Origin: Candidatus Polarisedimenticola svalbardensis
GTDB taxonomy: Bacteria; Acidobacteriota; Polarisedimenticolia; Polarisedimenticolales; Polarisedimenticolaceae
Direction of reading: 5' to 3'
Length of the DNA stretch: 41,872 nucleotides
Assembly (NCBI GenBank): GCA_014764515.1
Contig: JACXWD010000012.1
Location: 1 to 41,872, forward strand
Under the pieces are notes generated by a model. That model searched no databases. It had not been told where the DNA came from and was given only the letters and a program-made list of their open reading frames with translations. Positions 4,466-41,872 of the stretch are shown in pieces. Made by a program: the position numbers and the translations under genes. Every line of letters begins with the position of its first letter. Position 1 is the stretch's first letter.

Positions 4466-5416
4466 TCAACGATTCCGGGCGATCTTGATGGTGGATAAAA
4501 TCGCCTCCATAAGGTCGGCGCCGTCTTTCCTGTCCGCCACCAGGCTGACCTGAAACAGGATGCCGTTCCAGGCAACCGCCACCAGATCGCCGCGGCGTGC
4601 AACACCGTCGGAGCCGGTCCCTTCGGCAACCACCCGGACTCCGCGGCATGTCCCGATGGTCAGCGGCGCAGCCTGCGGCGCATTCACCAGGGTCAGGCTG
4701 CCCATGGACACCGGGTCCGATGTGAACCGTTCCATGATCTCCGTCTGAAGATCGCCGGAAATACCGGAGCTGCAGCCGGCGGAACCGTAGCCGGACAGTG
4801 CGGTACGCTCCACCAGGAGCCGGGTGCCGCCCCCGGCCAGTTGATCCGCCGTTTCCACCGGTTCCGGCGTGAAGCTGGTCCGACCCAGAGGCAGAACATG
4901 ATCCGAATTGATGTCCCGGCTCAAATGGAACGGGTGCCAGCCGGACGGAAAAGCGACTGCCAGCATCCGGTCCAGCGGCTCGTACGGCTCCAGGCCATCC
5001 GGAACATCAAACTGGGCGATCTTTCGGCTGCGGGCGATATCCAGAAGCAGCTCGTAGATCCCCCGGGTCTCCTGGCCGTAGCCCATCCGGTGACCGTCCC
5101 TGACCCCGACCACCGTATCCGGTTGCCCGTCTCGAAGGCCCAGGATGACCCAGTCGGTGTCTACGTCCCCTTTCATGGAGCCGAGGGAAATGATGGAGAT
5201 CCCATCCAGCGGAACCGACCAGCCGTGCTTGCGATGGACAAACTCCAGCCCGTCTTCCCGGATCGTAAGGTCCCCGCCGGCCCGGAAGACCTTGCCGAAC
5301 GGACGATTCACGCCGCGGTACCAGACCCGCTCCACCGTCTGTGGAAGCACCGGCGCCGCTTGAGGCGCCGCAGAACCCAGCACTGCCAGGATACAGAGAC
5401 TTGGTAGCCAAGACAC
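4466..5416 (-). CDS. Exported protein of unknown function with an N-terminal PH/GRAM-like beta segment
   Basis: 316 residues. An N-terminal signal peptide (MSWLPSLCILAVLGSAAPQAA) predicts export. Residues about 30-110 alternate short beta strands (DLTIREDGLEFVHRKHGWSV, ISIISLGSMKGD, WVILGLRDG), a pattern like PH/GRAM-type folds, but I cannot assign a family. The C-terminal half contains a probable disulphide region around SAGCSSGISG and GTCRGVRVV, and ends in a strand-helix unit (LFQVSLVADRKDG, MEAILSTIKIARN) seen in small secreted proteins of the 'DUF1795-like' style. It lies 42 nt upstream of the acyl-CoA dehydrogenase on the same strand, so co-transcription is possible without a functional link. 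Confidence 0.75.
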   Translation of the reverse strand: MSWLPSLCILAVLGSAAPQAAPVLPQTVERVWYRGVNRPFGKVFRAGGDLTIREDGLEFVHRKHGWSVPLDGISIISLGSMKGDVDTDWVILGLRDGQPDTVVGVRDGHRMGYGQETRGIYELLLDIARSRKIAQFDVPDGLEPYEPLDRMLAVAFPSGWHPFHLSRDINSDHVLPLGRTSFTPEPVETADQLAGGGTRLLVERTALSGYGSAGCSSGISGDLQTEIMERFTSDPVSMGSLTLVNAPQAAPLTIGTCRGVRVVAEGTGSDGVARRGDLVAVAWNGILFQVSLVADRKDGADLMEAILSTIKIARNR

Positions 5417-5481: not shown

Positions 5482-5637
5482 TCAGCCCAGGCTCAGGTTC
5501 CCGGCCAAGATGATCAGGCCGGAAATCGTCCCGAGGAGAATCGCTGTGACCAGGAGTCGCCAGCCGACACCGCGCCAGAGCTCGGCGTGGTCGGTGTGAT
5601 CGGCTATTTGGGTGGCAGCTCTGGCTTTTCTCGACAC
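5482..5637 (-). CDS. Small single-helix membrane protein
   Basis: I chose the GTG at 5637 because AAGGAAAGG lies about 10 nt upstream. The first in-frame ATG, at 5682, has no SD and would add 15 residues. The product is about 51 residues: a short charged cytoplasmic segment (ATQIADHTDHAELWRG), then one hydrophobic helix (WRLLVTAILLGTISGLIILAG), ending NLSLG. No family is recognised. It is divergent from the transporter gene at 5748. It could be non-coding, but the hydrophobic helix together with the SD support it. Confidence 0.45.
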   Translation of the reverse strand: MSRKARAATQIADHTDHAELWRGVGWRLLVTAILLGTISGLIILAGNLSLG

Positions 5638-5747: not shown

Positions 5748-8700
5748 ATGGATAATGCCCCGGTGGCAGACCAGGTAAAGCAGTATTTGCTGCGGATAAG
5801 CGCTCTCAAACCCGGGGAAGCGGGGAAAACCCTGCTCCTGGGACTGTACCTGTTCCTGGTCATCGCCACCTACCTCATCGCCAAATCAGTCCGGGACGGC
5901 CTATTCCTGGACCGCTACGGCGCATTCAAACTGCCTTACGTCATCATCGGCATCGCCGTGGCAGTGGGCATTTTCGTCGCCGTCTACATCCGGCTGGCCC
6001 GACGGATCGAACCGACCCGCCTGGTGGTCGGCACCCTGGTCCTGTTCATTTCCAACCTGGTGCTGTTCTGGTGGATGATCCGGGCCGGGGTCGGCTGGGT
6101 CTATCCGACCATCTACATCTGGGCCGGCATGTATGGCGCCATCGCACCGGCACAGGTCTGGACCCTGGCCAACGATGTCTTCACAACCCGCCAGGCCAAG
6201 AGGACATTCGGCATTGTCGGTAGCGGGGGGATACTGGGAGCGATCTTCGGCAGCTACCTCACCCGGGAATTCGCCCTCCGGATCGGGACGACGTCCCTGC
6301 TGTTGATCATGGCTCTGCTGCTCCTGCTGGCGGCGATAGTGGTGCTGGCTCTCAGCCGCCACCGCATCGCAGCCGACGCCAGGGAAGGTCGCTCCGCAGC
6401 GCCCCGTCACATGATGGACAGTCTGAAACTGATTTCGGCTTCGCCCCACCTGCGCCTGATCGCAGGACTGGTTTTCATCACGGCGCTGGCCACCACGATG
6501 GCCGATTTCCAGTTCAAGGCCGTGGCGGTGGAGAAACTGGCCGGCGACCCGGACCGGCTGACGGCGTTCTTCGGAACGTTCTACGGCACCGTCGGTGTGC
6601 TTTCTTTCGTCGTGCAGTTCCTGATCACCAGCCGGCTCCTCCGCCGACTGGGACTGGGCGGTTCCATCCTGCTGTTGCCGCTGGCCCTGTTCGCAGCGTC
6701 GATCCTCCTGATCCCGACCATGGCGCTGTACGCTGCCGTGATGCTCAAAGGCTCGGATGCCGCCATGAAGCATTCCGTTGATCGCTCCACCCGGGAACTG
6801 GCCTACCTGCCGGTGGATCGCAGGATCAAGATCCATGTCAAGTCCGCCATCGACATGGTGGTGGACCGACTGGGTGACGGCACCGGCGGCGTCATACTAC
6901 TGGTCCTGATCTCCCTCTTCGGCTTCGGACTGCGGGGTGTGATCTACGCCAACCTGGTCTTCATCGTCGCCTGGTTGTTCATCGCCGTCCGGCTGCGAGC
7001 CTCCTACCTCAGGGAACTGTCCCGTTCGATCCGTGAAGGTCGTATCGAGATCGGCTCCTGGGACGAGGCCCTGGCCGGATCCGAAATGCTGGACGCACTG
7101 GGTGATGCCCTTGAATCCGGCGACCAGCCCAGAGTTCTTGCCGCCCTGGACCTGGTGGCCAGGAACCCGTCGTGGGATTTCCGGCAGGTCCTGAACCGCC
7201 TGGCCACGAAAGGGTGCGAAGAGGTCCGGGCAAGAGCGACGGCGATCCTGCTCAGGCCTGAGGAGCCGGACCTGCCGGTGGGGATTGCAGGGACTTTCCA
7301 GGAAGAGGACCGGGCCCTGTTCAGCGAGTGCATCGATTTCATGGCTGCCGACGGCTTCGAAGAGAAAGAGGCCCTGGCGAATACGATCCTGCGCCGGGCC
7401 GGCGGCAGCGCCCGCGGGGTCTGGGTAGCGCTGATGCTGCGCCGCCTGGGAGATGAATTCCTGCCGTTCGGCCGCGCCCTGCTGGAGCACCTGGCCCACG
7501 CCGATTCCACTACCAGCTCCCGGGAGGCGGCAGCAACCGCCATCGGCATGATGCCTCTATCAAGCGACCTGTCCGCTCTGCTCCCGGACCTGCTGCAGGA
7601 CCGGGAACAGCAGGTTGTGGAAGCGGCCGCCAGCTCGGCGGGAGCGATCGGCTCCGACTCGATGTTGCGCCTGCTGGTGGAGCAACTGGGCCGCCAGGCA
7701 GGCAGGCTCGCCGCCAGACAGGCGTTCCTCGCCCGGGGAGACGAGGTTATCCCGATGCTGACGGAGTGCATTCGCGAACCGGCTCTCCCCATGGCGATCC
7801 GCCGGCACATACCATCACTCCTCGGCGCCATCGGCAGTGAGCGGGCGGTGTGCGCACTCCTCACCGTCCTGGACGACCCGGAACGATCGCTCTCGTCTGC
7901 GGCACGGGAAGCGCTTTACCGCCATCGACTCCCCCGTCCTGAAATACCGCTGGTCTCAAGGCAACGGGTGGAAGACAAGGCTATGGAACTGGCCCGGCGA
8001 TACCGGGACCTTGGGACCCACCTTGAAGAGGTGCGGCTGGTTTCTGACGGCGATCCGGCGGCTCGTGCACTGCTGGTGGACACCCTGGAGGAAGCCAGGG
8101 GCCGTGAAAGGAACGCCCTGTTCCAGGTGCTGAGCCTCTATTATCCGCCGGCCGACATCCAGAACTGCAGGCGGTCCATGCAGGAACACGACATGGAGCG
8201 GCGGTCCAACGCCGAGGAGTTGATGGACAACCTCTCTCCCGGACGGTTGTGGCACGCCATCCTTCCGATCCTGTATCCTGAAACTGCCGTCCGCCGGAAG
8301 GAGCGCCACACCGGGCCGGGTCCCGACCTGGAGCAGTCCCTGGCGGCGCTGGCCCGGGATCCGGATCCCTGGATCAGCGCCTGTGCACTGAACCTGGCGG
8401 CGGGAGGGGGACACAACCGGCTCGTCGAGATCGCCCGGGAGCGGGACATGCACCCTGACTACAGGGTGAGGGAAGCCGCCCGGCGTACCGGTGGTGGAGG
8501 ACAGAACATGGTGACCGAATCGGCCGGTGTGTTCGACAAGATCATGGCTCTGAAAAATGTCGATCTGTTCTCCGGCGCCCCCACGGAACAACTCTCTCTC
8601 ATCGCGGCGCTGGCTCGCATCGTCGAGTTTCCCGAGGGGGCCGAACTGTGCAGGCAGAACGATCCTGCCGGCGATCTGTTCATCGTGCTGTCCGGCAGCG

Positions 8701-8933
8701 CCTCCCTGCTCCGGGACGGCGAGACCCGGGGCCGGCTGATTACCGGTGAAGCTCTGGGCACCTGGGGCCTGTTCGAGGACGAGCCCAGGCAGGTCACCGT
8801 GCAGGCAGTGGAACCGATGCAGGTATTACGCATAGACCGCTGGGGCTTCGACCAGCTCCTGTTTGAACATCCGGAAGTCTCCCGTTCCCTGATACGGCTC
8901 ATGGTGAAACGGCTCAGGAATATGACGCGATGA
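5748..8933 (+). CDS. NTT-type nucleotide-transporter domain fused to HEAT repeats and a cyclic-nucleotide-binding domain
   Basis: 1061 residues in three parts. Residues about 25-430 are an MFS-like membrane domain of 10-12 hydrophobic helices, with the ATP/ADP translocase-like opening 'LLLGLYLFLVIATYLIAKSVRDGLFL' shared by NTT proteins of chlamydiae, plastids and some free-living bacteria. Residues about 440-905 are helical HEAT-type repeats (for example LLPDLLQDREQQVVEAAASSAGAIGS). Residues about 928-1061 are a cNMP-binding domain (FPEGAELCRQNDPAGDLFIVLSGSASLL, ITGEALGTWGLFEDEPRQVTVQA). Free-living bacterial NTT-HEAT fusions are known; whether they transport nucleotides is largely untested. 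The cNMP phosphate cassette here (EALGTWGLFEDEPRQVTV) lacks the canonical GE-RAA Arg-Ala-Ala, so cAMP binding is doubtful. The gene overlaps the receiver gene by 4 nt (ATGA), suggesting a membrane sensor or transporter with its own signalling partners. Confidence 0.88.
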   Translation: MDNAPVADQVKQYLLRISALKPGEAGKTLLLGLYLFLVIATYLIAKSVRDGLFLDRYGAFKLPYVIIGIAVAVGIFVAVYIRLARRIEPTRLVVGTLVLFISNLVLFWWMIRAGVGWVYPTIYIWAGMYGAIAPAQVWTLANDVFTTRQAKRTFGIVGSGGILGAIFGSYLTREFALRIGTTSLLLIMALLLLLAAIVVLALSRHRIAADAREGRSAAPRHMMDSLKLISASPHLRLIAGLVFITALATTMADFQFKAVAVEKLAGDPDRLTAFFGTFYGTVGVLSFVVQFLITSRLLRRLGLGGSILLLPLALFAASILLIPTMALYAAVMLKGSDAAMKHSVDRSTRELAYLPVDRRIKIHVKSAIDMVVDRLGDGTGGVILLVLISLFGFGLRGVIYANLVFIVAWLFIAVRLRASYLRELSRSIREGRIEIGSWDEALAGSEMLDALGDALESGDQPRVLAALDLVARNPSWDFRQVLNRLATKGCEEVRARATAILLRPEEPDLPVGIAGTFQEEDRALFSECIDFMAADGFEEKEALANTILRRAGGSARGVWVALMLRRLGDEFLPFGRALLEHLAHADSTTSSREAAATAIGMMPLSSDLSALLPDLLQDREQQVVEAAASSAGAIGSDSMLRLLVEQLGRQAGRLAARQAFLARGDEVIPMLTECIREPALPMAIRRHIPSLLGAIGSERAVCALLTVLDDPERSLSSAAREALYRHRLPRPEIPLVSRQRVEDKAMELARRYRDLGTHLEEVRLVSDGDPAARALLVDTLEEARGRERNALFQVLSLYYPPADIQNCRRSMQEHDMERRSNAEELMDNLSPGRLWHAILPILYPETAVRRKERHTGPGPDLEQSLAALARDPDPWISACALNLAAGGGHNRLVEIARERDMHPDYRVREAARRTGGGGQNMVTESAGVFDKIMALKNVDLFSGAPTEQLSLIAALARIVEFPEGAELCRQNDPAGDLFIVLSGSASLLRDGETRGRLITGEALGTWGLFEDEPRQVTVQAVEPMQVLRIDRWGFDQLLFEHPEVSRSLIRLMVKRLRNMTR

Positions 8934-9388
8934 ACGACGACTACAAACCGAAAATCCTGGTGGTGGACGACGAACCGATGGTCACCCGGACCCTGGAAGG
9001 GGTTCTCCGTATGGACGGAACCCTGGAATGCACGGCGGTGAACCGGCCGGCGGAAGGCCTGGACCACCTGGGGAAATCCCAATTCGACGTTATCCTGAGT
9101 GACTTCATCATGCCTGAACTGGACGGCCTGGAATTCCTGTCCAAGGCCCGCGAACTGCAGCCGGAAGCGTCCCGCATCCTGCTGACCGGGTATGCAGACA
9201 AGGAAAGCGCCATCCGTTCCATCAACGAAATCGGTTTGTACCAGTACATTGAGAAACCGTGGCACAACCAGCAACTGCTGATGATCCTGCGCAACGCCGC
9301 CGAGCGGACCTGCCTGCTGCGGCGACTCAACAACGGCGAGGGCTCGGATGGCGAGCTGCGCCAACAAATATGGAAGATGTTGATCTGA
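8930..9388 (+). CDS. Stand-alone receiver-domain response regulator
   Basis: 152 residues. A complete receiver fold: acidic pair D13/D14, phosphoacceptor D58 in VILSDFIMP, the switch Thr in ILLTGYAD, and Lys in YIEKPW. After the receiver only about 30 residues remain, so no DNA-binding or enzymatic output is present. The IEKPW sequence and the tail after it resemble the receiver part of HD-GYP/RpfG-type and other 'EKPW' regulators. Its start overlaps the stop of the transporter fusion (ATGA), and the kinase gene starts 2 nt after its stop. It is therefore translationally coupled in a three-gene operon and most likely receives phosphate from that kinase. Confidence 0.92.
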   Translation: MNDDYKPKILVVDDEPMVTRTLEGVLRMDGTLECTAVNRPAEGLDHLGKSQFDVILSDFIMPELDGLEFLSKARELQPEASRILLTGYADKESAIRSINEIGLYQYIEKPWHNQQLLMILRNAAERTCLLRRLNNGEGSDGELRQQIWKMLI

Positions 9389-9390
9389 TC

Positions 9391-10554
9391 ATGGCTGAAG
9401 ATTGCCCCCTTGAGCATTTCATCGACCCTTTAAGCCGCCTGGACATCGGTCGCCGGATCCTCCGGCAGAACCGGCTATCGACGGAGCGGTTCGGCGACGC
9501 CGGGGGCAGGACCTGCCACGAGGCCCATTTCAACCGTGACGAGCCGTGCGAAGGCTGCCTGTTCCAGAACGTGGTGGACGGCGGCCGGGCCGAGCGCTGG
9601 TACCTGGCCGATCGCGACGAAGACGGCAAGCCACCCTCCTATTACGAGATCAGCCTGATCCCTGTCGTCGATGAAGACGGCAAGGTCACCGCGGTACAGG
9701 AAGTGATCCGGGACGCCACCGCCACGGTGGCGGTAGAGCAACACCTGATCCAGCTGTCGGAAAATCTCGGCCACCAGACCCATAAGCTTCGCAAGGATCT
9801 GGCCGAGCTGCACAAGGCCCAGGCCGCCCTGATCCAGACCGAAAAGCTGGCGTCCCTGGGCAAGCTGGCTGCCGGCCTGACCCACGAGATCCATACGCCA
9901 CTGGGAACCCTGGTAGCCAACCTGGACGTGTTGAGGTACGAGATCAACGGCATGAAGGCCGAACTCACCGGCCAGGACGGCGTTTCGGAACGGCTCCAAC
10001 GGATGGAGGAGCTGCTGGAACTCCATGACATGGCCACGTCAAGGATTCAGACCATCATCCGTTCTCTCAGGGAGTTCGCCCACCTGGACCGGGCGGTGAT
10101 GGAAACCGTCGATCTTCACGAGGGCATCGAATCGGCACTGAACCTCCTGACCTACGAGATCAAGCAGCGGATCGAGATCGAGCGCCACTACGGCAAAATC
10201 CCGCCGGTGCAATGCCGGCCCGACGCCATGAACCAGGTGTTCATGAACCTGCTTCAGAACGCCGTGCAGGCGATCCCCGACATGGGCCGGATCCGGATCG
10301 CCACACGCCTCGAAGGCGATGGCCAGATTGTGCTGGAGTTCGAGGACGACGGCAAGGGGATTCCGGCGGACCGGCTTGAGCAGATCTTCGACCCGGGGTT
10401 CACCTCCAAACCGAGAGGGGTGGGGAGCGGCCTGGGGCTGGCCATCGCGCACCAGACCATCACCGGGCACGGTGGCACCATCGACGTGCGCAGCAAGCCT
10501 GGAGAGGGAACACGCTTTACCCTGGTGCTGCCCCTGGTTCAGGAACCGGTCTGA
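9391..10554 (+). CDS. Soluble PAS histidine kinase with a Cys-rich sensor segment
   Basis: 387 residues from the ATG at 9391; an in-frame ATG at 9370 would overlap the receiver gene. No transmembrane helix is visible, so it acts in the cytoplasm. The PAS-like N-terminus carries TCHEAHFNRDEPCEGC, a Cys-x14-Cys-x2-Cys set resembling PAS domains that may bind metal or a cofactor or sense redox. A coiled-coil follows, then the H box LTHEIHTPLG (His165), the N box NLLQNAVQAI, G1 DDGKGIP, the F box FDPGFTSK and G2 GSGLGLAIAH. All catalytic boxes are intact. It probably autophosphorylates and passes phosphate to the receiver encoded just upstream. The 3' end overlaps the convergent phosphatase-kinase gene by 16 bp. 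Confidence 0.92.
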   Translation: MAEDCPLEHFIDPLSRLDIGRRILRQNRLSTERFGDAGGRTCHEAHFNRDEPCEGCLFQNVVDGGRAERWYLADRDEDGKPPSYYEISLIPVVDEDGKVTAVQEVIRDATATVAVEQHLIQLSENLGHQTHKLRKDLAELHKAQAALIQTEKLASLGKLAAGLTHEIHTPLGTLVANLDVLRYEINGMKAELTGQDGVSERLQRMEELLELHDMATSRIQTIIRSLREFAHLDRAVMETVDLHEGIESALNLLTYEIKQRIEIERHYGKIPPVQCRPDAMNQVFMNLLQNAVQAIPDMGRIRIATRLEGDGQIVLEFEDDGKGIPADRLEQIFDPGFTSKPRGVGSGLGLAIAHQTITGHGGTIDVRSKPGEGTRFTLVLPLVQEPV

Positions 10555-12419
10555 GAACAGCCTTCAAGGAGTGCGTCCCGTCTCACTTCCACAGCCTTGA
10601 TCTGGTCCTTGTCCAGCCAGCCTCGGAGCACCTTCTTCAGGTTGCCGCTCTCCAGGTTCTTTAGAGCGGCCTCCATCTCCGGCGCCAGCACCCACCTGCC
10701 TTCAGGGAACCAGGCCTTGAGGTCGGTTTCCAGCGTAAACGCCCTGGAATGATCGATGAGGGCGATTTTGCCTTCCACCGGAATGTGGAGGATGTCGCTC
10801 TCCTTGCGGTCCATGTTCCCGATCAAGGCATCAAAAACCTTGCCGGCCTCGAGCTGCAGCTTGATCGCTTCATCGTGACCCGGCGGCAGACCGTACTCCC
10901 TTGCACCCTGGGCGTCCAAAGCGTGCTCCACAAAATACTGCAGCGAGCACGGCACGTTGACGCCGGACTTTCGCAGCACCGTGACCGGCACCAGGTTCAG
11001 ACCGAGCCTGCGGTCCAGGCGGTAGGCGGCTATTTCGTGCTGATAGCGGTCACCCGGCTCCTGGACGTTCTTGCAAACGCCTCGGACCCGCTTCTTGTCC
11101 TTGCGGAATTCCATGAGCATCGGCCGGGTGCTGCCCTTCCCCAACCGGCGAACGGATTGCACCTTGCCGGACTCCAGCAGGTTCTCGAGGACAAGGTCCG
11201 ACAGCTGGGGCACGGTGGACAGCGCCCCTTCTCCTTCAGGAGGCTCGATGGTGGCCAGGGCCAGCTCTCCGGTCCGTGCATCGAATACCCGGACCTCGTT
11301 GTCCTCGATCACCAGGGCCTGGGGGGCGCCGCCCCCGGGATAGGCCATACCGACGTCGGCGCGGAACAGTTTGCCGCCGAACCGGGACGTGATGTGCCCT
11401 TCCTTCGCGATGGAGTGCCCAACCACCATGGCCCGGCCACCCAGCGTTTCGAGACAGGCGGCTACACGCTCCCGCTCCACCCGCTCGGCTTCCAGGGAGT
11501 TGCCTCTGTACCACACCGGGCCTTCCGGGGAGACCGCCGGAGATTTCAGGATCTCGCGGAGGGCGCCGGCCGCCTCCTTCTCCACCTTGTTGGCCATTCC
11601 GGACATAACCTCTGCGGCGATCCCCATGGTCCGGCGGAAATCATCGGAAACGGTCACTTCGCCCGACTCGATGAGCACTTCGCGCAGTTTCCAGTAGTTC
11701 CGGATCCCGTTTCTAACCGACTGGTTGATCCGTTCATACCCCAACCCGGCCGTTTCCTCGGTGAGCCCCCCGTGTACGAACACAAAGCCGTTGAGACGGA
11801 GGATGACGTGCTGGTCCAGCAGCCAGTTGGAATAGACGCCGTCCGGTCCGAAGGCGGAACGTCTTGCGAAGTAGCCGGGAGGGTACGTGTCTTCAAATCT
11901 GCGCTGGAAGTTCTCCCGGTTGAGACCTTCTCCCCGGATCTGTCCGTAGAACCGCTTGGATGCTTCCCGGCGCTGGTCCGGATCCTCTTCATCAATGAAC
12001 GCTTCGTACCCTTCCTGAGGCACGTAGCGCAGGTCCTGCATCATGTTCATGACCTCGTGGTTCCCCAGGAGTACGTGAACCCGGCCATCCGCCTCTTCCG
12101 CTTCCCCCTGCAGACGGCGCACGAGATCCAGCAGCTGCCGCTCCTGCGGCCCCCGGTCGGTCATATCGCCTACGAAAACCAGGTGGGTATTTCCTCCGGC
12201 CCAGCGCAGATCCTCGTCAACAAGTTCGAGGCCGAACAGCACCAGTTGAACCTGGGCGAATCCGCCGTGAGTGTCCCCCAGGGCGACGATCCGCGGCACC
12301 CCCTCCCAGGTCCAGGGCGACGTCTCCATGGGGCCGGTGAACTCCTCCCCGGCGAACGAGGGCAGGGCCGCGATGAGCAGCAAAACGACCAACAGTACCG
12401 ATCGTCCCGGATGTCGCAA
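10539..12419 (-). CDS. Exported metallophosphoesterase fused to a Fam20/PI4K/HipA-like kinase domain
   Basis: 626 residues starting at a TTG with GAAGGAGG 6 nt upstream. A signal peptide (RSVLLVVLLLIAALPSFA, cleavage near residue 23) predicts export. Residues about 42-375 are a calcineurin-type phosphatase: GDTHGG (D49, H51), GDMTDRGP, GNHE, VHGGL and VGHS supply the two-metal site of PPP/Shewanella-like phosphatases. Residues about 415-610 look like an atypical kinase: a glycine-containing LGKGSTRP loop, candidate catalytic Lys450 in GVCKN, a Glu in the following helix (HEIAAYRLDRRLG), DALIGNMDR with Asp537, and a metal-binding Asp556 in LIDHSRAF. The usual Asn after 'GNxDRxxx' is Asp here. 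The kinase call is by motif only. If correct, one exported polypeptide carries opposing phosphorylation activities. I know of no characterised example. Confidence 0.82.
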   Translation of the reverse strand: MRHPGRSVLLVVLLLIAALPSFAGEEFTGPMETSPWTWEGVPRIVALGDTHGGFAQVQLVLFGLELVDEDLRWAGGNTHLVFVGDMTDRGPQERQLLDLVRRLQGEAEEADGRVHVLLGNHEVMNMMQDLRYVPQEGYEAFIDEEDPDQRREASKRFYGQIRGEGLNRENFQRRFEDTYPPGYFARRSAFGPDGVYSNWLLDQHVILRLNGFVFVHGGLTEETAGLGYERINQSVRNGIRNYWKLREVLIESGEVTVSDDFRRTMGIAAEVMSGMANKVEKEAAGALREILKSPAVSPEGPVWYRGNSLEAERVERERVAACLETLGGRAMVVGHSIAKEGHITSRFGGKLFRADVGMAYPGGGAPQALVIEDNEVRVFDARTGELALATIEPPEGEGALSTVPQLSDLVLENLLESGKVQSVRRLGKGSTRPMLMEFRKDKKRVRGVCKNVQEPGDRYQHEIAAYRLDRRLGLNLVPVTVLRKSGVNVPCSLQYFVEHALDAQGAREYGLPPGHDEAIKLQLEAGKVFDALIGNMDRKESDILHIPVEGKIALIDHSRAFTLETDLKAWFPEGRWVLAPEMEAALKNLESGNLKKVLRGWLDKDQIKAVEVRRDALLEGCSQTGS

Positions 12420-13888: not shown

Positions 13889-14845
13889 ATGAACTTCGGA
13901 CTGACATTACTGGCCGGCCTGATCGTCCTCCTGGCCGGGGGCGAACTGCTGGTGCGTGGCGCATCCGCCCTGGCAAGGAACCTGGGGGTCTCGCCCTTCG
14001 TGGTCGGGCTGACCGTGGTCGCCTTCGGCACCAGCGCTCCGGAACTGGCGGTGAACGTCTCTGCCGCCCTGAGTGGGAATAGCGACATCACCTTCGGCAA
14101 TGTCATCGGCTCCAACATCGCCAACATCGGCCTGATCATCGGACTCACAGCCCTGATGAAGGCGTTCACGGTGCGCCGATCCATCGTCAGCCGGGAGATC
14201 CCGGTGATGCTGGGGGTGACCGCACTGGGGATCGTACTGGCCCTCGATGCCCGGTTCGGCCGGGTGGACGGTGCCATCCTGCTGGTCTGTTTCGTCTGCT
14301 TCCTGTTCGTCACCACCCGGACCGCCCTGAAGGACCGGAATAAGGATCGGTTCCTGGAGGGGGCCGAGGGCGAAGAGGAAGCCCACAAGGTGATGCACTG
14401 GGCGCCGGCCTCCCTGCTCACCCTGGCCGGCCTGGCCGGGGTACTTCTGGGAAGCGACTGGACGGTGGACGGCGCCTCCGGCGTCGCCGTCAGCCTGGGG
14501 ATGAGCCAGGCAGTCATCGGCCTCACCATCGTCGCCCTGGGCACAAGCCTTCCGGAACTGACCACTTCCCTGTTCGCCGTGCGGAAAGGTCAGGCCGAAC
14601 TGGCCATCGGGAACGTGGTCGGCTCCAACATCTTCAACCTGCTGTTCATCCTGGGGGTCTCGTCGGGCATCCGGGCTGTGGAGGTGCCGCGAGGCGGATT
14701 CATGGACCTCATCGCCATGGCAATCTTCTCGGTGGTGTTGCTCCCATTCGCCATGAGCCGGCAGCGACTGGCGCGGCACGAGGGCCTGCTGCTTCTGGCC
14801 GGTTACCTGGCCTACATGGCCTGGCGGACCTTGTCCACCAGTTGA
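13889..14845 (+). CDS. Sodium/calcium exchanger family protein (YrbG-like)
   Basis: 318 residues from the ATG at 13889. Two inverted repeats of the cation/Ca2+ exchanger fold are clear. The alpha-1 repeat has VVAFGTSAPELAVNVSAA and GNVIGSNIANIGLI; the alpha-2 repeat has IVALGTSLPELTTSLFAV and GNVVGSNIFNLLFI. The Glu of each 'GTSxPEL' lies in the ion-binding site. Ten or so transmembrane helices flank a short acidic cytoplasmic loop (EGAEGEEEAHKV). It would exchange Na+ for Ca2+ across the inner membrane. It is divergent from nnrU, and its 3' end overlaps the convergent hybrid kinase by 34 bp. Confidence 0.93.
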   Translation: MNFGLTLLAGLIVLLAGGELLVRGASALARNLGVSPFVVGLTVVAFGTSAPELAVNVSAALSGNSDITFGNVIGSNIANIGLIIGLTALMKAFTVRRSIVSREIPVMLGVTALGIVLALDARFGRVDGAILLVCFVCFLFVTTRTALKDRNKDRFLEGAEGEEEAHKVMHWAPASLLTLAGLAGVLLGSDWTVDGASGVAVSLGMSQAVIGLTIVALGTSLPELTTSLFAVRKGQAELAIGNVVGSNIFNLLFILGVSSGIRAVEVPRGGFMDLIAMAIFSVVLLPFAMSRQRLARHEGLLLLAGYLAYMAWRTLSTS

Positions 14846-16380
14846 GTCGTGGAAAACGGTTTGCGCAGCAGGTGGACGTCTTCGATGGCGAAGCCGTGGC
14901 GACTCAGGATGTCGTCGGTGTAGCCGGACATGAACAGGGCCGGCAGCTCCGGCCGGTTCTCCAGGATCCTGGCGACCAGATCGGGACCGTTCATCACAGG
15001 CATCATCACATCGGTCAGGATCAGGTCCACGTCATTGCCGTCCTTCCGGAACATGCGCAATGCAGCGGCGCCGTTGCGCGCTTCCAGGACCTGGTACCCT
15101 TCCGCCTCCAGGGCCTGTTTCACCAGGCCGGCCACAGTCGGCTCATCTTCGACCACCAGCACCGTGCCGGTACCGTGTTCCCGTTCGGTGTCTTCATCAC
15201 ATGGTTCCGCCGTAACCGGCAATTCACTGCAAACCGGGAGGTAAATTTCCAGAACCGCACCTTCACCTTCCCTGGTCACCAGCTTCACATCCCCACCGCT
15301 CTGTTTGACCATGCCGTACACGCTGGACAGGCCCAGGCCGACTCCCCGACTTTCGCCTTTGGTCGTAAAGAACGGTTCAAACGCGGCGGAGGCGACTTCC
15401 GGGGACATGCCGCAGCCGCTATCCTCTACCCGCAGGCAGGCATAGTCGCCTGGTTCAAGATCCAGCCCGCTGCCGCTTTCCATCGATACCCGTGATGTAT
15501 CGACCGTCAGGGTTCCACCCTGAGGCATGGCGTCCCGGGCGTTGGTCACCAGGTGCAGGATGACCTGTTCCATCTGGCCCGGATCGACCCGCACTGGAAT
15601 CCCGCCCTTATCGTGTCGGATGCTCAGATGAATCTGCTCACCGATCAGGCGGCGGATCATTGTGTTCAGGTTGTCGACGATGGAGTGCAACTCCACCACT
15701 TTCGGCTTCAGGTCCTGCTTGCGTCCGAACGCCAGAAGATGTGAGATCAGACCTGCCGCCTCTTCACCGCCGGCCCGGATCGCCTCGACCTGCTCCAGCA
15801 GTTTCGGCGAGTTGGCCAACTGGCGGGCGAGGAGATCGGCATAGCCCAGGACGGAGACCAGGATGTTGTTGAAATCGTGGGCGACTCCCCCGGCCAGTTT
15901 GCCGATCGCCTCCATCTTCTGGGCGTGCCGGAGTTGCAGCTCCAGGTCCTTGCGCTCGGATATCTCCCGCCATACGACATGGATCAGGACCTTGTCCCCT
16001 TCGGGAACAGGCGTCAGAAGAACCTCTACCGGGAACACTTCCCCGTCGGCGCGCTGGTGGTCCCATTCGAAGCGATGGCTGCCCCGCTCCATGGCGATGG
16101 CGATCATCTCGCTGGCCTTCTCGAACGACCGCCTGCCGTCCGGCTGAAGCTGAGGGGACAGTTCGGACGGGTGGGTCTGGAGCAGTTCTTCCTTGGTCCG
16201 ATACCGAAGCATTCGAACGGTCGCCTCGTTGCAATCCACGAAGGTCTCACCATCGATAACCAGGATGGCGTCGGCGGAGCGTTCAAACAGCAGCTGGTAT
16301 TTATTCTGACGGTCCGGGCTTTCGCCGGGGTGGCGTCGGGGATGCACGTCCTCCCTGGACCCATTTTCATTCGATGCCAT
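14812..16380 (-). CDS. Hybrid sensor histidine kinase (PAS-HisKA-HATPase-receiver)
   Basis: 522 residues from the ATG at 16380, chosen because AGAGGGTTCC precedes it; an upstream TTG at 16401 has no SD. Order: PAS (about 27-145, LLFERSADAILVIDG... ISERKDLE), H box GGVAHDFNNIL (His168), HATPase with VTNARDAM, EDSGCGM, FEPFFTTK and GVGLGLSSVYG, then a C-terminal receiver with DLILTDVMMP (Asp457) and LRKPFS. The AHDFNNIL form with a 'FFTTKGExxGVGLGL' lid is typical of hybrid kinases in environmental bacteria. It has no transmembrane segment, so it is cytoplasmic. No output regulator is nearby. It lies downstream of the polysaccharide cluster on the same strand. Confidence 0.95.
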   Translation of the reverse strand: MASNENGSREDVHPRRHPGESPDRQNKYQLLFERSADAILVIDGETFVDCNEATVRMLRYRTKEELLQTHPSELSPQLQPDGRRSFEKASEMIAIAMERGSHRFEWDHQRADGEVFPVEVLLTPVPEGDKVLIHVVWREISERKDLELQLRHAQKMEAIGKLAGGVAHDFNNILVSVLGYADLLARQLANSPKLLEQVEAIRAGGEEAAGLISHLLAFGRKQDLKPKVVELHSIVDNLNTMIRRLIGEQIHLSIRHDKGGIPVRVDPGQMEQVILHLVTNARDAMPQGGTLTVDTSRVSMESGSGLDLEPGDYACLRVEDSGCGMSPEVASAAFEPFFTTKGESRGVGLGLSSVYGMVKQSGGDVKLVTREGEGAVLEIYLPVCSELPVTAEPCDEDTEREHGTGTVLVVEDEPTVAGLVKQALEAEGYQVLEARNGAAALRMFRKDGNDVDLILTDVMMPVMNGPDLVARILENRPELPALFMSGYTDDILSRHGFAIEDVHLLRKPFSTTQLVDKVRQAM

Positions 16381-16487
16381 GGAACCCTCTGTTGCGTTCA
16401 ATTTTCTGGTCTGAATAAAGATAGGTTCTGCCGCGGGGCAGGGGCCAGCGGAACCTGATTGCCGGATATAATGGCTTTATTCCGCCG

Positions 16488-37821: not shown

Positions 37822-38988
37822 CTAGAACTCGAACCCCTGTGCCTCCGCACGCTCACGAACGGTACGCCTGACCAGGCGGCGCAGGTCGTCGCCGGTAGCC
37901 TTGACGCCGGCCGCTCGGCTCGACTCGATATGGCGCTCCCGCTGCTCTCCAAGAGACCGGATGCGGTCCTTCAGCTCCCGGCGCCGGTCTGCAAGACGGA
38001 ACAGGTAGTCATCCCGCTCCGCCGGGGTCATGGCCTGCATGATTGCCGGAAGGTCCTCCTCCGGAACATCCTCCAGGAACACCCGGCCCGAATCGACTGC
38101 GTCCACCAGGTCCCAGTCGCCCTGGTACAGCGGCCCGGCCTTGGTGATCGCCCGACTGGCCGCCACGGATACTCCCAAAGACTCCACATTCTGGTCCTGG
38201 AGTATCTGGTTCTCCGCCGCCTCGGCGCCATTCTCGCCGTACGGGACGTACGTCGCACTGAGTTCCTGTCCGCTGGAGGCCAGTTCCCGGTCGAACGGGC
38301 TGGCCGGTCCCTCCGGCCGCTTGCCGGGCCTCAGGGTGGCAACCTGGACGCCCAGGGTCTCACTCAGCGACCGCCAGGTCTGGTAATTCCTTCCGCCGCC
38401 CCCCCCGACATAAATCGGATGGACCGCAATTTCACGACGCCCCGCGTCCAGCGCCAGATCTTCGGGATCAATCGCCTGGTCCTGGTCGGCCTCCTCGTTT
38501 CCCATCACGAAGATCATGCGCACGGCCTGATCTTCCTCCGACCACTCGAGCTGATCCAAGGCCACCCGGACCACCCGCTCGACGTACTCTTCCGATCCGC
38601 CGGTCCGGAGTTCGAACAGCGACCGGGAGACGGCGTCCAGGTCATCGGTGAGTGGGCGGTTGATCCGGATCCATCCGGACTCTCTGGGGTTGCGGCTGTT
38701 CCCGTACGACAGCAGCGCCACCCTCAGGCGTGGCGTCGGTTCTAGACGGGACAGGTCGTCCACGATCCCCCATAGATGGATCCGGGCTTCATCGATAGAG
38801 GCGTTCATCGATCCGCTGGTATCGAGGCAGATGGCGAGTTCGATGACAGGTGGACCGTCCTGTGCCGTGGCGGTGGGAAAGAAAAACCCGCCCAGCAGAA
38901 AGAAGACGGCAACCGGGGCGAGGCGTCGTAGCCCCGCCCCGGTGGTGTTATGCGTCGGTCGTATCGCCCGACAGGTCATCGGGCTCAC
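37822..38988 (-). CDS. Exported von Willebrand factor A domain protein
   Basis: 388 residues from a GTG at 38988 that overlaps the stop of the adhesin gene (GTGA); an ATG three codons in is possible. A signal peptide with a long n-region (RRLAPVAVFFLLGGFFFPTATAQ) precedes a VWA domain (about 48-230) with the metal-ion-dependent adhesion site DTSGSMN (Asp56, Ser58, Ser60) and a later RMIFVMGNEEADQD strand. The C-terminal 150 residues are a charged helical region (MQAMTPAERDDYLFRLADRRRELKDRIRSLGEQRERHIESSR), likely coiled coil. It is co-translated with the adhesin-like protein, so it may bind it or assemble with it. The stop directly abuts the convergent propeller gene. Confidence 0.87.
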   Translation of the reverse strand: MSPMTCRAIRPTHNTTGAGLRRLAPVAVFFLLGGFFFPTATAQDGPPVIELAICLDTSGSMNASIDEARIHLWGIVDDLSRLEPTPRLRVALLSYGNSRNPRESGWIRINRPLTDDLDAVSRSLFELRTGGSEEYVERVVRVALDQLEWSEEDQAVRMIFVMGNEEADQDQAIDPEDLALDAGRREIAVHPIYVGGGGGRNYQTWRSLSETLGVQVATLRPGKRPEGPASPFDRELASSGQELSATYVPYGENGAEAAENQILQDQNVESLGVSVAASRAITKAGPLYQGDWDLVDAVDSGRVFLEDVPEEDLPAIMQAMTPAERDDYLFRLADRRRELKDRIRSLGEQRERHIESSRAAGVKATGDDLRRLVRRTVRERAEAQGFEF

Positions 38989-41872
38989 GGTCCCGGGAAA
39001 CTGCTCGGGCCGGTCCTGCAGGTATCGGGCTGTTGGAAGAAGTTGACCTCTTCGAATTCGTTACCTTTCAGGTTGACGATCTGTTCGGAGTTCTCGCAAT
39101 TGGGATCAGCGACGTCGCTGTCCTGGTCCACGACAATCGCCATCCGGAAGTCGGTCGGCTTGCCCTTGTGCTTGTACACGACCTGGTAGTAGCCGTCGTC
39201 GTCCATCATGGAACGTCCGACCTCGCACCACTCCTGATCGCAGCCCTTCTTCGGATTGTACGGTCTGTACAGCTTGACCCACTTGTCCTTGGCCGGCTCA
39301 CCGTTCTCGGGAACGATGGTCGGATCGACATTGCCGAACTCGTCCTTCGGCTTGTGGGCGCCGCGACCTGCAACGCCCGGGTTCTTCTTGAATTCGTTGT
39401 CGTTCTGGACCGCGTCGCAACCGAGCTCGTCCAGGGTGTCTCCCAGAGAGTCCCAGCCGATGTAGGAGCAGAACGTGTGATCCACAAGCTCCGGAATCAC
39501 GATGACCGGGTTGCCGGCCGTTCCAGGCTCGATGGCCACATCGTCAAGGCCCGCGTCGTAGCGATCGCCGAGACCATCGCCGTCGGCATCAACATGCCGC
39601 CCCTTGAGCCCATCGTCCATGTGCTGGTTGATGTATGCGAACCCGGTAGACGGGATCGTGATCTGGATCTCGATATCAACCAGCACCGGGCTACCGTCCG
39701 GGTTGTATCCGGTAACGGTACCGCCGGCAGGCAGGGTCGTGTAGTCGCCCAACACCACAACCTGGTTGATCGCCTGGCTCTCGTCACCAGGCAGGTAGCA
39801 CGTTTCGCCCGAGTCGTTGACGTACAGGCTGACACCGTCGTAGACGTGGAGCGCCCTTGCACCCTGTGTCACGAACGGCCATGGCAGGGACAAGGTGATA
39901 TTGACGATTTCACCCGGAGTTCCACTGACACTGAGGTTGTAGAAGAACTGTCCGGGGTTCGTTGCGTTGAACTTGAAGCTCGGCATGTTCTGGTGGTCCT
40001 GAGTGAACAGCCTCCGCCACTGGCGTCCGTTGGTGTCGTCACCGTCGTTGTCGAAGATGCACAGCGAGGAGTTCGTCACCGAGATCGGCGGCGAGATCGT
40101 CACTGTAGCGTCATCGCTGTCCGAAACCGGGTTGCCTTCGTCATCCGTACCGCTCGCGGTGACGGTATCGGTCTCCTCTCCAAAGACCTCTCCGGCCACG
40201 AGACCGACGAACGCAACGAAGTTGCAGGTGTATGTCTCTCCCGGCAGGATCGTGATCAGCGCGCAATCCGTGCTGACCTGATCCTTGATCGTGCCGCCCT
40301 CACCGGTAAGGATGAGGATGTCGCCGTAGATGTCATCGGTCAGGCTCGTCAGAGTCACCGGGTCGGTGCTGACGCTGTCGTTGGTGATCTCTATGACGAA
40401 GGTGACATTCTCCCCTGGCGCCACCACGTTGTTGGGATTGGCGGTCTTGACGACAGTGATGGCCGGCAACGCGCCGGTTACGGTCACCACGGCGTCATCG
40501 GTGAGGGTGAAGGCTGCCCCGTCGTCATCTACACCGGTCGCCGAAACCACATCGGTCTCGACGAGTCCGGCGTTGCCGTCCACGAAAGCGGTGAACTGGC
40601 AGGTGTAGGTGGCATTGGGCAGGATTGTCTGCGGAACCACGCAGTCGGTGGCTACGATCCCGTCATGTCCGATCGTTGTGATGTCGTTGTAGATCGAATC
40701 GGTCAGTGACTGAAGTGTCAGCGTGTCGAAGCTCGAGCCGTTGAACAGGCCGACCGTGAACGTGACGTTTCCACCCGGTTCGAGAACCGTGAGGGGACTG
40801 GCTGTCTTTGTCAGCTCGGCGTATTCCGAGGGTACGATGTTCCGGACCTGCACAATCGCGTTATCGCTGTTCGGATCCGACTGATCGCTGTCCGCAACCG
40901 CCGTGTTGTTTATTTCATCGCCGGAATTGAATTCACCGGCGGCGACTACCCGAGTCGCGGTGTAGGTCCAGGTTTCGTCGAGATCCAGCTCGCCGTCATT
41001 GTCGGTATCACCGCCAACGAAGGTCGGACTGAAGTCGTCCGAGTTGTCTCCTGGTGTGGCGTTGTCGTCAATTACCGTGACGTTGGTCAGTGTCACGTTA
41101 CCAGCGTTGGTCACGCTGTAACTGTAGGTGATCGTCCCGCCGTCCTCGAAGATAAAGGTCGGATTCGCTGTTTTGACGATCCGGATCGCCGGGTTCTGAG
41201 GCAGCGCTACCGTCTCGTCGTCGATGACCGGGTCGGTCTCAGCGCTGTCCGCAGTCGCCACGTTGGCACGGCTGCCGGCATCGATATCAGCCTGGGTCAC
41301 CGAGTACGACCCGCTGCACGTCTCACTGGCACCTACCGCCAGCGACGGGATCGGGTTACCACTCGGACACGTGATCACAGGCACCAGCGGGTCCGTCACG
41401 CTCACGTTCGTCAGCGTCACGTTACCGCCGTTCGACACCAGGAAGCTGTAGGCGATCGTCTCGCCCAACTGGGCAAAGCCGTCGCCGTTCTCGTCGTTGA
41501 ATGTACCGGTCTTCACTATCGTAAGCACCGGGTTCTGAGGCAGCGCTACCGTCTCGTCGTCGATGACCGGGTCGGTCTCAGCGCTGTCCGCAGTCGCCAC
41601 GTTGGCACGGCTGCCGGCATCGATATCAGCCTGGGTCACCGAGTACGACCCGCTGCACGTCTCACTGGCACCTACCGCCAGCGACGGGATCGGGTTACCA
41701 CTCGGACACGTGATCACAGGCACCAGCGGGTCCGTCACGCTCACGTTCGTCAGCGTCACGTTACCGCCGTTCGACACCAGGAAGCTGTAGGCGATCGTCT
41801 CGCCCAACTGGGCAAAGCCGTCGCCGTTCTCGTCGTTGAATGTACCGGTCTTCACTATCGTAAGCACCGGGT
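38985..41872 (-). CDS. Large adhesin-like surface protein with DUF11-type repeats (5' end outside window)
   Basis: At least 962 residues; the N-terminus lies beyond 41872. Two identical 113-residue repeats (LTIVKTGTFNDENGDGFAQL... VIDDETVALPQNP) open the visible part, followed by three diverged DUF11-type domains (each starting near xIxVVKTANP or LTKTASP, with VTLTNVxVxD-type strands). A domain of unknown family comes next (SSLCIFDNDGDDTNGRQWRRLF... ALHVYDGVSLYVND) with DADGDGLGDRYD. The last part contains KDKWVKLYRPYNPKKGCDQEWCEVG and DGYYQVVYKHKGKPTDFRMAIVVDQ, similar to an SdrD-B-like or prealbumin-like fold. No LPXTG, PEP-CTERM or type-9 sorting signal is visible at the C-terminus. The VWA gene follows with a 4-nt overlap. 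Confidence 0.85.
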   Translation of the reverse strand, partial: PVLTIVKTGTFNDENGDGFAQLGETIAYSFLVSNGGNVTLTNVSVTDPLVPVITCPSGNPIPSLAVGASETCSGSYSVTQADIDAGSRANVATADSAETDPVIDDETVALPQNPVLTIVKTGTFNDENGDGFAQLGETIAYSFLVSNGGNVTLTNVSVTDPLVPVITCPSGNPIPSLAVGASETCSGSYSVTQADIDAGSRANVATADSAETDPVIDDETVALPQNPAIRIVKTANPTFIFEDGGTITYSYSVTNAGNVTLTNVTVIDDNATPGDNSDDFSPTFVGGDTDNDGELDLDETWTYTATRVVAAGEFNSGDEINNTAVADSDQSDPNSDNAIVQVRNIVPSEYAELTKTASPLTVLEPGGNVTFTVGLFNGSSFDTLTLQSLTDSIYNDITTIGHDGIVATDCVVPQTILPNATYTCQFTAFVDGNAGLVETDVVSATGVDDDGAAFTLTDDAVVTVTGALPAITVVKTANPNNVVAPGENVTFVIEITNDSVSTDPVTLTSLTDDIYGDILILTGEGGTIKDQVSTDCALITILPGETYTCNFVAFVGLVAGEVFGEETDTVTASGTDDEGNPVSDSDDATVTISPPISVTNSSLCIFDNDGDDTNGRQWRRLFTQDHQNMPSFKFNATNPGQFFYNLSVSGTPGEIVNITLSLPWPFVTQGARALHVYDGVSLYVNDSGETCYLPGDESQAINQVVVLGDYTTLPAGGTVTGYNPDGSPVLVDIEIQITIPSTGFAYINQHMDDGLKGRHVDADGDGLGDRYDAGLDDVAIEPGTAGNPVIVIPELVDHTFCSYIGWDSLGDTLDELGCDAVQNDNEFKKNPGVAGRGAHKPKDEFGNVDPTIVPENGEPAKDKWVKLYRPYNPKKGCDQEWCEVGRSMMDDDGYYQVVYKHKGKPTDFRMAIVVDQDSDVADPNCENSEQIVNLKGNEFEEVNFFQQPDTCRTGPSSFPGP
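41191..41872. repeat. Perfect 339-bp tandem repeats within the adhesin gene
   Basis: Bases 41191-41529 and 41530-41868 are identical at every base I compared, and the last bases of the window begin a third copy. The unit is 339 bp, i.e. 113 codons, so the reading frame is preserved. Complete identity, including third codon positions, means recent duplication or gene conversion. The window ending inside the array suggests a contig break at an unresolved repeat. Confidence 0.97.

Follow-up and report, generated by a model that had tools for sequence, protein, structure and literature searches.

A receiver and a histidine kinase encoded with an NTT-HEAT-cNBD membrane protein in Acidobacteriota and other bacterial phyla

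The membrane protein considered here has the fold of the ATP/ADP translocators AtNTT1 and Chlamydia NTT1 (9j3m, 9j3l, 9j3n), and mutants of AtNTT1 point to a part for K155 in ADP binding, for E245 in translocation and for K527 in ATP binding (PMC3306366). The NTT-HEAT-cNBD architecture has also been published from free-living hosts, with the cNBD either fused or encoded by an adjacent gene (Major et al. 2017, PMC5381601); control by cAMP is proposed there, and the portions of that paper on which we draw do not report two-component genes, a changed cassette or secreted-kinase neighbours. Transporter-like proteins are known to take part in signalling in other families, as UhpC is a transporter-like sensor that works with the kinase UhpB and CbrA is an SLC5 transporter fused to a PAS-kinase (both PMC8871633). 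The operon described here is similar to UhpABC in that a kinase and a receiver accompany an MFS-fold protein, but its receiver has no DNA-binding domain, its kinase is soluble and its membrane protein carries a HEAT-cNBD tail. As in CbrA a transporter module seems to be coupled to PAS-histidine-kinase signalling, although the transporter family is another one and the coupling is by separate genes. In several bacterial phyla a relative of the chloroplast and Chlamydia ATP/ADP carriers is encoded together with a phosphorylation switch of its own. The fusion itself is known; what appears to be new with respect to the searchable literature is the dedicated receiver and kinase, the cassette switch and the association of NTTs with secreted kinases, as a search of the openly accessible literature turned up no paper that joins NTT-HEAT proteins to two-component genes, or NTTs to FAM20-like kinases.

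The window, by which we mean the whole stretch of 41,872 nucleotides that was analysed, is the start of a contig in an Acidobacteriota MAG of 3.69 Mb and 180 contigs. Positions 5748-10554 hold an operon of three plus-strand genes, encoding an NTT-HEAT-cNBD fusion of 1061 aa (5748-8933), a stand-alone receiver (REC) of 152 aa (8930-9388) and a soluble PAS histidine kinase of 387 aa that starts at the ATG at 9391 and ends at 10554. The fusion and REC genes share an ATGA overlap and a gap of 2 nt separates REC from the kinase, so the coordinates and junctions given in the earlier note were correct when the ORFs were checked. Upstream the operon is bounded by divergent minus-strand genes, the nearest being a 51-codon ORF (5482-5637) followed by a gene at 4466-5416, and downstream by a convergent minus-strand gene (about 10539/10542-12419) whose stop overlaps the kinase gene; scans for promoters and terminators gave nothing convincing. 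The 51-codon ORF has one hydrophobic segment and is also conserved in the sister species (L039). In that species the three operon proteins are 87, 84 and 82% identical with the same junctions, and a dN/dS of 0.13-0.15 shows each of the genes to be under purifying selection. Among named relatives, the fusion is closest to those of the uncultured Acidobacteria CALZKF01 (at 87% identity) and of Acidobacteria bacterium Mor1 (at 47%).

The membrane domain of the fusion (residues ~10-430, 5775-7037) matches the TLC/NTT family PF03219 (E 1.5e-25, 90.4 bits, with the curated cut-off at 21), and is followed in the same chain by a HEAT-repeat region (residues ~445-916, 7080-8495; HEAT_2, PF13646, 3.2e-11), which is all-helical in the AF2 model (mean pLDDT 83.6), and by a cNBD with a CRP-like fold (residues ~934-1061, 8547-8930; cNMP_binding, PF00027, 4.2e-15). 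All of the membrane-type hydropathy lies within the NTT part, with a best 19-residue value of 3.39 that compares with 0.97 in REC and 0.81 in the kinase; neither of the latter has a membrane segment, and the fusion is the only membrane component of the operon, as had been proposed. The NTT fold is clear in the model, where residues 10-425 superimpose on AtNTT1 (9j3m) with Z 45.2 and an rmsd of 2.2 A over 410 aligned residues, unrelated MFS proteins reaching Z of only about 30. When the AtNTT1 sites are mapped with one constant numbering offset for the solved chain, which gives K, E, E and K at the four sites, K155, E245, E385 and K527 correspond to I66, G127, D253 and D377 in the window fusion, so that three of the four charged residues needed for ATP/ADP exchange are replaced and acidity is kept only at the E385 position. 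The same is seen more widely, with no Glu at the E245 position in 31 REC-linked members and a basic residue at the K155 position in one of 31; members with a canonical cNBD, on the other hand, have Glu or Gln at the E245 position in 23 of 23. Given these replacements classical ATP/ADP exchange by the REC-linked fusions is unlikely, and the window protein does not look like a canonical exchanger, although loss of these residues does not equate to an absence of transport, and the fusions may transport in some other way or act as sensors. The same genome has a second, stand-alone NTT of 421 aa without HEAT or cNBD (G000:C6:4212-5444, L058), in which the four positions are F, A, Y and D. An NTT 82% identical to that of the window is encoded on a contig that is filed as Gammaproteobacteria (L105, CAMYIN010000026.1) and is probably a mis-binned Acidobacteriota contig.

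The REC protein matches Response_reg (PF00072, E 2.1e-22) and has the residues of a two-component receiver, D13, D14, D58, T86 and K109 being invariant in 15 relatives and Asp58 (9101-9103) the predicted phospho-acceptor. No Pfam domain follows residue 120, where there is only a conserved tail that across the subfamily ends in motifs like KAFM, which bears out the claim that the receiver has no output domain. By score it is a discrete subfamily, since its Acidobacteriota members reach 215-243 bits and the next matches are a REC-kinase at 179 bits and then longer proteins at 120 bits or less. Another two-component gene lies 4 kb from the operon on the minus strand (14812-16401) and encodes a PAS-hybrid histidine kinase with a C-terminal receiver that falls outside this subfamily.

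We searched the genomes of 60 relatives, 297 Acidobacteriota, the 20 genomes behind named loci and 82 from the phylum to which a KSB1 MAG belongs, and read the neighbourhoods of the genes found. Of 35 genes of the REC subfamily, 33 adjoin a cNBD gene, 31 of these with NTT-HEAT, and for the remaining two the contig stops at the cluster. The Acidobacteriota have 13 such genes, 11 beside NTT-HEAT/cNBD and two (G159, G235) with a contig end immediately upstream; all 17 in the KSB1 phylum are linked, and the five others lie beside NTT-HEAT and cNBD (G308, G311, G313) or beside a cNBD only (G312, G316). A weaker REC relative in G309 adjoins a stand-alone NTT (L258). The linkage recurs at the level of genus, family, order, class and phylum as well as in other phyla, with gene order changed and the cNBD split or fused, and in two cases (L255/L112 and L256/L127) NTT-HEAT has moved away with cNBD and REC still together. 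This is far beyond chance, and in a control none of 40 generic REC matches lies on a listed NTT contig. The view that the three genes make up a genuine and conserved unit is supported. The dependence is, however, asymmetric, as receivers of this subfamily are missing from the vicinity of many NTT-HEAT(-cNBD) genes of Vicinamibacteria, Myxococcota, Marinimicrobia, Gemmatimonadota, Nitrospira and Bacteroidota. The neighbourhood test set in the earlier note therefore comes out differently on its two sides, the fusion often occurring without kinase or receiver, and REC not being found outside a cNBD/NTT-HEAT context among 35 genes, two of them at contig edges; the receiver thus implies the fusion and not the reverse. 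A single linked clade was considered and rejected, for the linkage label needs 9 changes on the NTT-HEAT tree, at least 5 of them forced by supported branches, when L112 and L127, whose cNBD-REC lies elsewhere, are counted as unlinked; such a pattern suits an old module that has been lost in places or has spread more than once.

The cNBDs of the linked members share a further feature. In the window protein the phosphate-binding cassette is GTWGLFEDEPR (residues 1004-1014, 8757-8789), in which the canonical Glu is missing and the Arg is present, so that the Glu and Arg pair of a cNMP-binding cNBD is incomplete. A GxWxL[FLI][DE] cassette without the ligand Glu is found in all 32 readable REC-linked cNBDs, the window included, with the ribose-binding Glu replaced by T, V, A, N or R beside an invariant Trp. 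Among 78 unlinked cNBD stretches only 5 have Trp there (L086, L128, L096, L129 in its second domain, and L110, which lies at the end of a contig), and REC-less members from Myxococcota, Bdellovibrionota and Marinimicrobia have the canonical FGEMA[IL]LDxEPRSAS. The correlation is made without regard to kinship, and as the linked and canonical groups are separate on the tree it represents few branches; Nitrospira L086 and L128, with a GxW cassette but no nearby REC, are counter-cases. We infer that the input of the cNBD has changed from a cyclic nucleotide to the receiver. Loss of the ligand Glu in every readable linked member argues against the suggestion that the C-terminal domain binds cAMP or cGMP, and the published proposal of cAMP control, in the portions we draw on, does not fit these members; taken with the replaced exchange residues it favours the phosphorylated receiver over a cyclic nucleotide as the regulator of HEAT-cNBD.

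The best explanation of the operon would seem to be one signalling unit built around a membrane protein derived from a nucleotide transporter. In the reading that we prefer, tentatively and with a probability of roughly 0.45, the phosphorylated receiver acts on the HEAT-cNBD tail of the fusion. The soluble kinase, tuned by its PAS domain and possibly also by contact with the membrane protein, would phosphorylate Asp58 of REC, which would then dock on the tail where cyclic nucleotides act in related cNBDs and switch the state of the NTT domain, so that REC would regulate the fusion and not DNA. The points counted for this reading are the discrete REC subfamily, its missing output domain together with its conserved active site and tail, the retention of cNBD with REC, the GxWxL cassette, the loss of exchange residues and the secreted-kinase neighbourhood. 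The earlier note had regarded the fusion as either sensor or target, a pairing that the results support, and linkage alone gives no direction of control.

The window kinase (9391-10554) matches PAS_4 (3.2e-5), HisKA (6.2e-6, at 26.6 bits just under the cut-off of 26.9) and HATPase_c (1.2e-27), and the predicted phospho-donor His165 (9883-9885) and N290 are invariant in 12 kinases, which identifies it as a histidine kinase. Its PAS domain has a C-x10-C-x2-C motif (C42, C53 and C56, 9514-9558) that is kept throughout the window clade (window, L039, L040, L043, L044, L045) and is absent from L048, L049 and L087; the proposed link to redox may therefore hold within this clade, where redox would perhaps tune the kinase, but it is lineage-specific. 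Elsewhere the kinase is the variable part of the system, its input domain differing between lineages or its gene being missing. The PAS lacks the Cys motif in L049 and L189, GAF-PAS is found in L093 and L115 (these four assignments being read from the sequence by eye), GAF in L300 and a membrane kinase in L054, the L087 kinase is a bare core of 260 aa with no sensor domain, and clusters L290, L291, L298 and L299 have no kinase gene. Best kinase matches elsewhere in the genomes were set aside as generic kinase cores, mostly of 33-44% identity, that are not orthologues by context. As the kinase varies or is missing and REC, cNBD and NTT-HEAT persist, the latter are the constant core, which is what is expected if REC acts on HEAT-cNBD.

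The kinase of L087, being bare, might just as well be driven by the membrane protein. The strongest rival builds on this and on the UhpC precedent: a non-transporting NTT-fold sensor of external or periplasmic nucleotide would control the kinase through its HEAT tail, with the partner of the phosphorylated receiver elsewhere. Loss of the translocation and binding residues would suit such a sensor, as would the several KSB1-type operons that encode a stand-alone NTT together with NTT-HEAT, reminiscent of UhpT with UhpC. Against this, the four clusters without a kinase keep their REC, no part of the system is conserved less well than the kinase, and it is REC and not the kinase that is tied to the cNBD; we regard this sensor as unlikely, though it is the rival to be taken most seriously. 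That the fusion is an active nucleotide transporter merely sharing an operon with unrelated two-component genes is more doubtful still, as the clear NTT fold and the many genomes with a fusion but no REC or kinase have to be set against a REC that is not found outside a cNBD context, a linkage kept despite reshuffled gene order and a GxW signature that tracks it. It is just as improbable that the cNBD, with its altered cassette, goes on binding a cyclic nucleotide or other small ligand and that REC acts elsewhere, since the Arg retained by the window protein and by most of those linked to REC and a fold that is intact in the model are outweighed by a ribose-binding Glu gone from 32 of 32 readable linked members.

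Action of the receiver on the fusion may also be part of a pathway with further targets, given that an additional REC, fused to a SpoIIE-type phosphatase, is encoded in L111, L292 and L294. Beside NTT-HEAT/cNBD/REC clusters of the KSB1 phylum there are in addition PDZ-GAF-SpoIIE phosphatases of ~940 aa (L295:3446-6253, L302:9056-11896, L303:10569-13409), the architecture being read directly in L303 and by similarity in the other two.

Finally, these operons have a context of secreted kinase-like and phosphatase genes that the earlier note did not mention. The convergent neighbour in the window (minus strand, about 10539/10542-12419) is a predicted secreted phosphoesterase, with an N-terminal hydrophobic segment read as a signal peptide, a calcineurin-like domain (PF00149, 4.8e-12) and a C-terminal FAM20-like kinase domain, KinA8 (10563-11216), whose profile finds FAM20A (hmmsearch 7.8e-11), FAM20C (8.3e-9) and FAM20B (3.5e-8) in the PDB and then PI4K (0.0015). 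It thus shares a kinase-domain profile with the FAM20 secretory-pathway kinases and would likewise be extracytoplasmic, but it is bacterial and fused to a phosphoesterase, and its kinase role is predicted. Genes for secreted phosphoesterases, for Omp85 barrels and for two families of kinase-like proteins flank the REC-linked clusters, and in L040, L049, L087, L291, L298 and L299 some of them share the strand of the cluster and are spaced tightly enough for one operon. The second family, KinA7, gave no credible match in the PDB or Pfam and is read as kinase-like from its motifs. By a rough hydropathy rule 13 of 17 complete N-termini of KinA8 proteins, the window's included, and 28 of 39 of KinA7 proteins look secreted.

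Among 297 Acidobacteriota genomes KinA8 is found in 58, all of which have an NTT, compared with 61 of the 239 that lack KinA8 (Fisher 1.6e-28); for KinA7 the figures are 46 of 49 and 73 of 248 (Fisher 5.9e-18). An NTT lies within 5 kb of at least 36 of 150 listed KinA8 copies (25 genomes), with 0.85 expected, and of at least 16 of 68 listed KinA7 copies, with 0.37 expected. The expected numbers are for genes placed at random in 4-Mb genomes, and the copies are non-independent, shared phylogeny being left in. Loci of Nitrospira, Gemmatimonadota and KSB1 likewise have these families next to NTT-HEAT. The NTT domain might then, and here the inference is weaker, move or sense nucleotide that serves the neighbouring extracytoplasmic kinase/phosphoesterase. 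A more general form of this idea, which is speculative and on balance doubtful, is that NTT-type carriers in free-living bacteria supply secreted kinases, FAM20-like and related ones, with nucleotide moved through the inner membrane, or else take it back, and that in the window lineage they are gated by the receiver/kinase pair through a cNBD switched from cyclic nucleotides to the phosphorylated receiver. Two handles on the role of NTT-HEAT(-cNBD) proteins are gained, namely a dedicated receiver that may have taken over regulation from a cyclic nucleotide, and an association, statistically strong, of nucleotide carriers with secreted kinase-like enzymes that otherwise have no obvious ATP source outside the cytoplasm, and the recurrence of the latter suggests a testable role for such carriers in free-living bacteria.

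Several other features of these genomes may be recorded. An Omp85 barrel and KinA7 recur as a pair next to NTT-HEAT in four phyla (L086, L128, L089, L117, L049, L087). The window also encodes, on the minus strand at 38985-41867, a large surface-type protein with near-identical tandem repeats. Two more genes for FAM20-like kinase domains are present in the same genome (G000:C164:27645-28307 and G000:C156:58805-59482), and in two other genomes four-gene arrays of FAM20-like kinases adjoin genes for two NTT proteins that are greatly extended at the C-terminus (G200:C19:187063-198789 and G247:C35:76937-88691).
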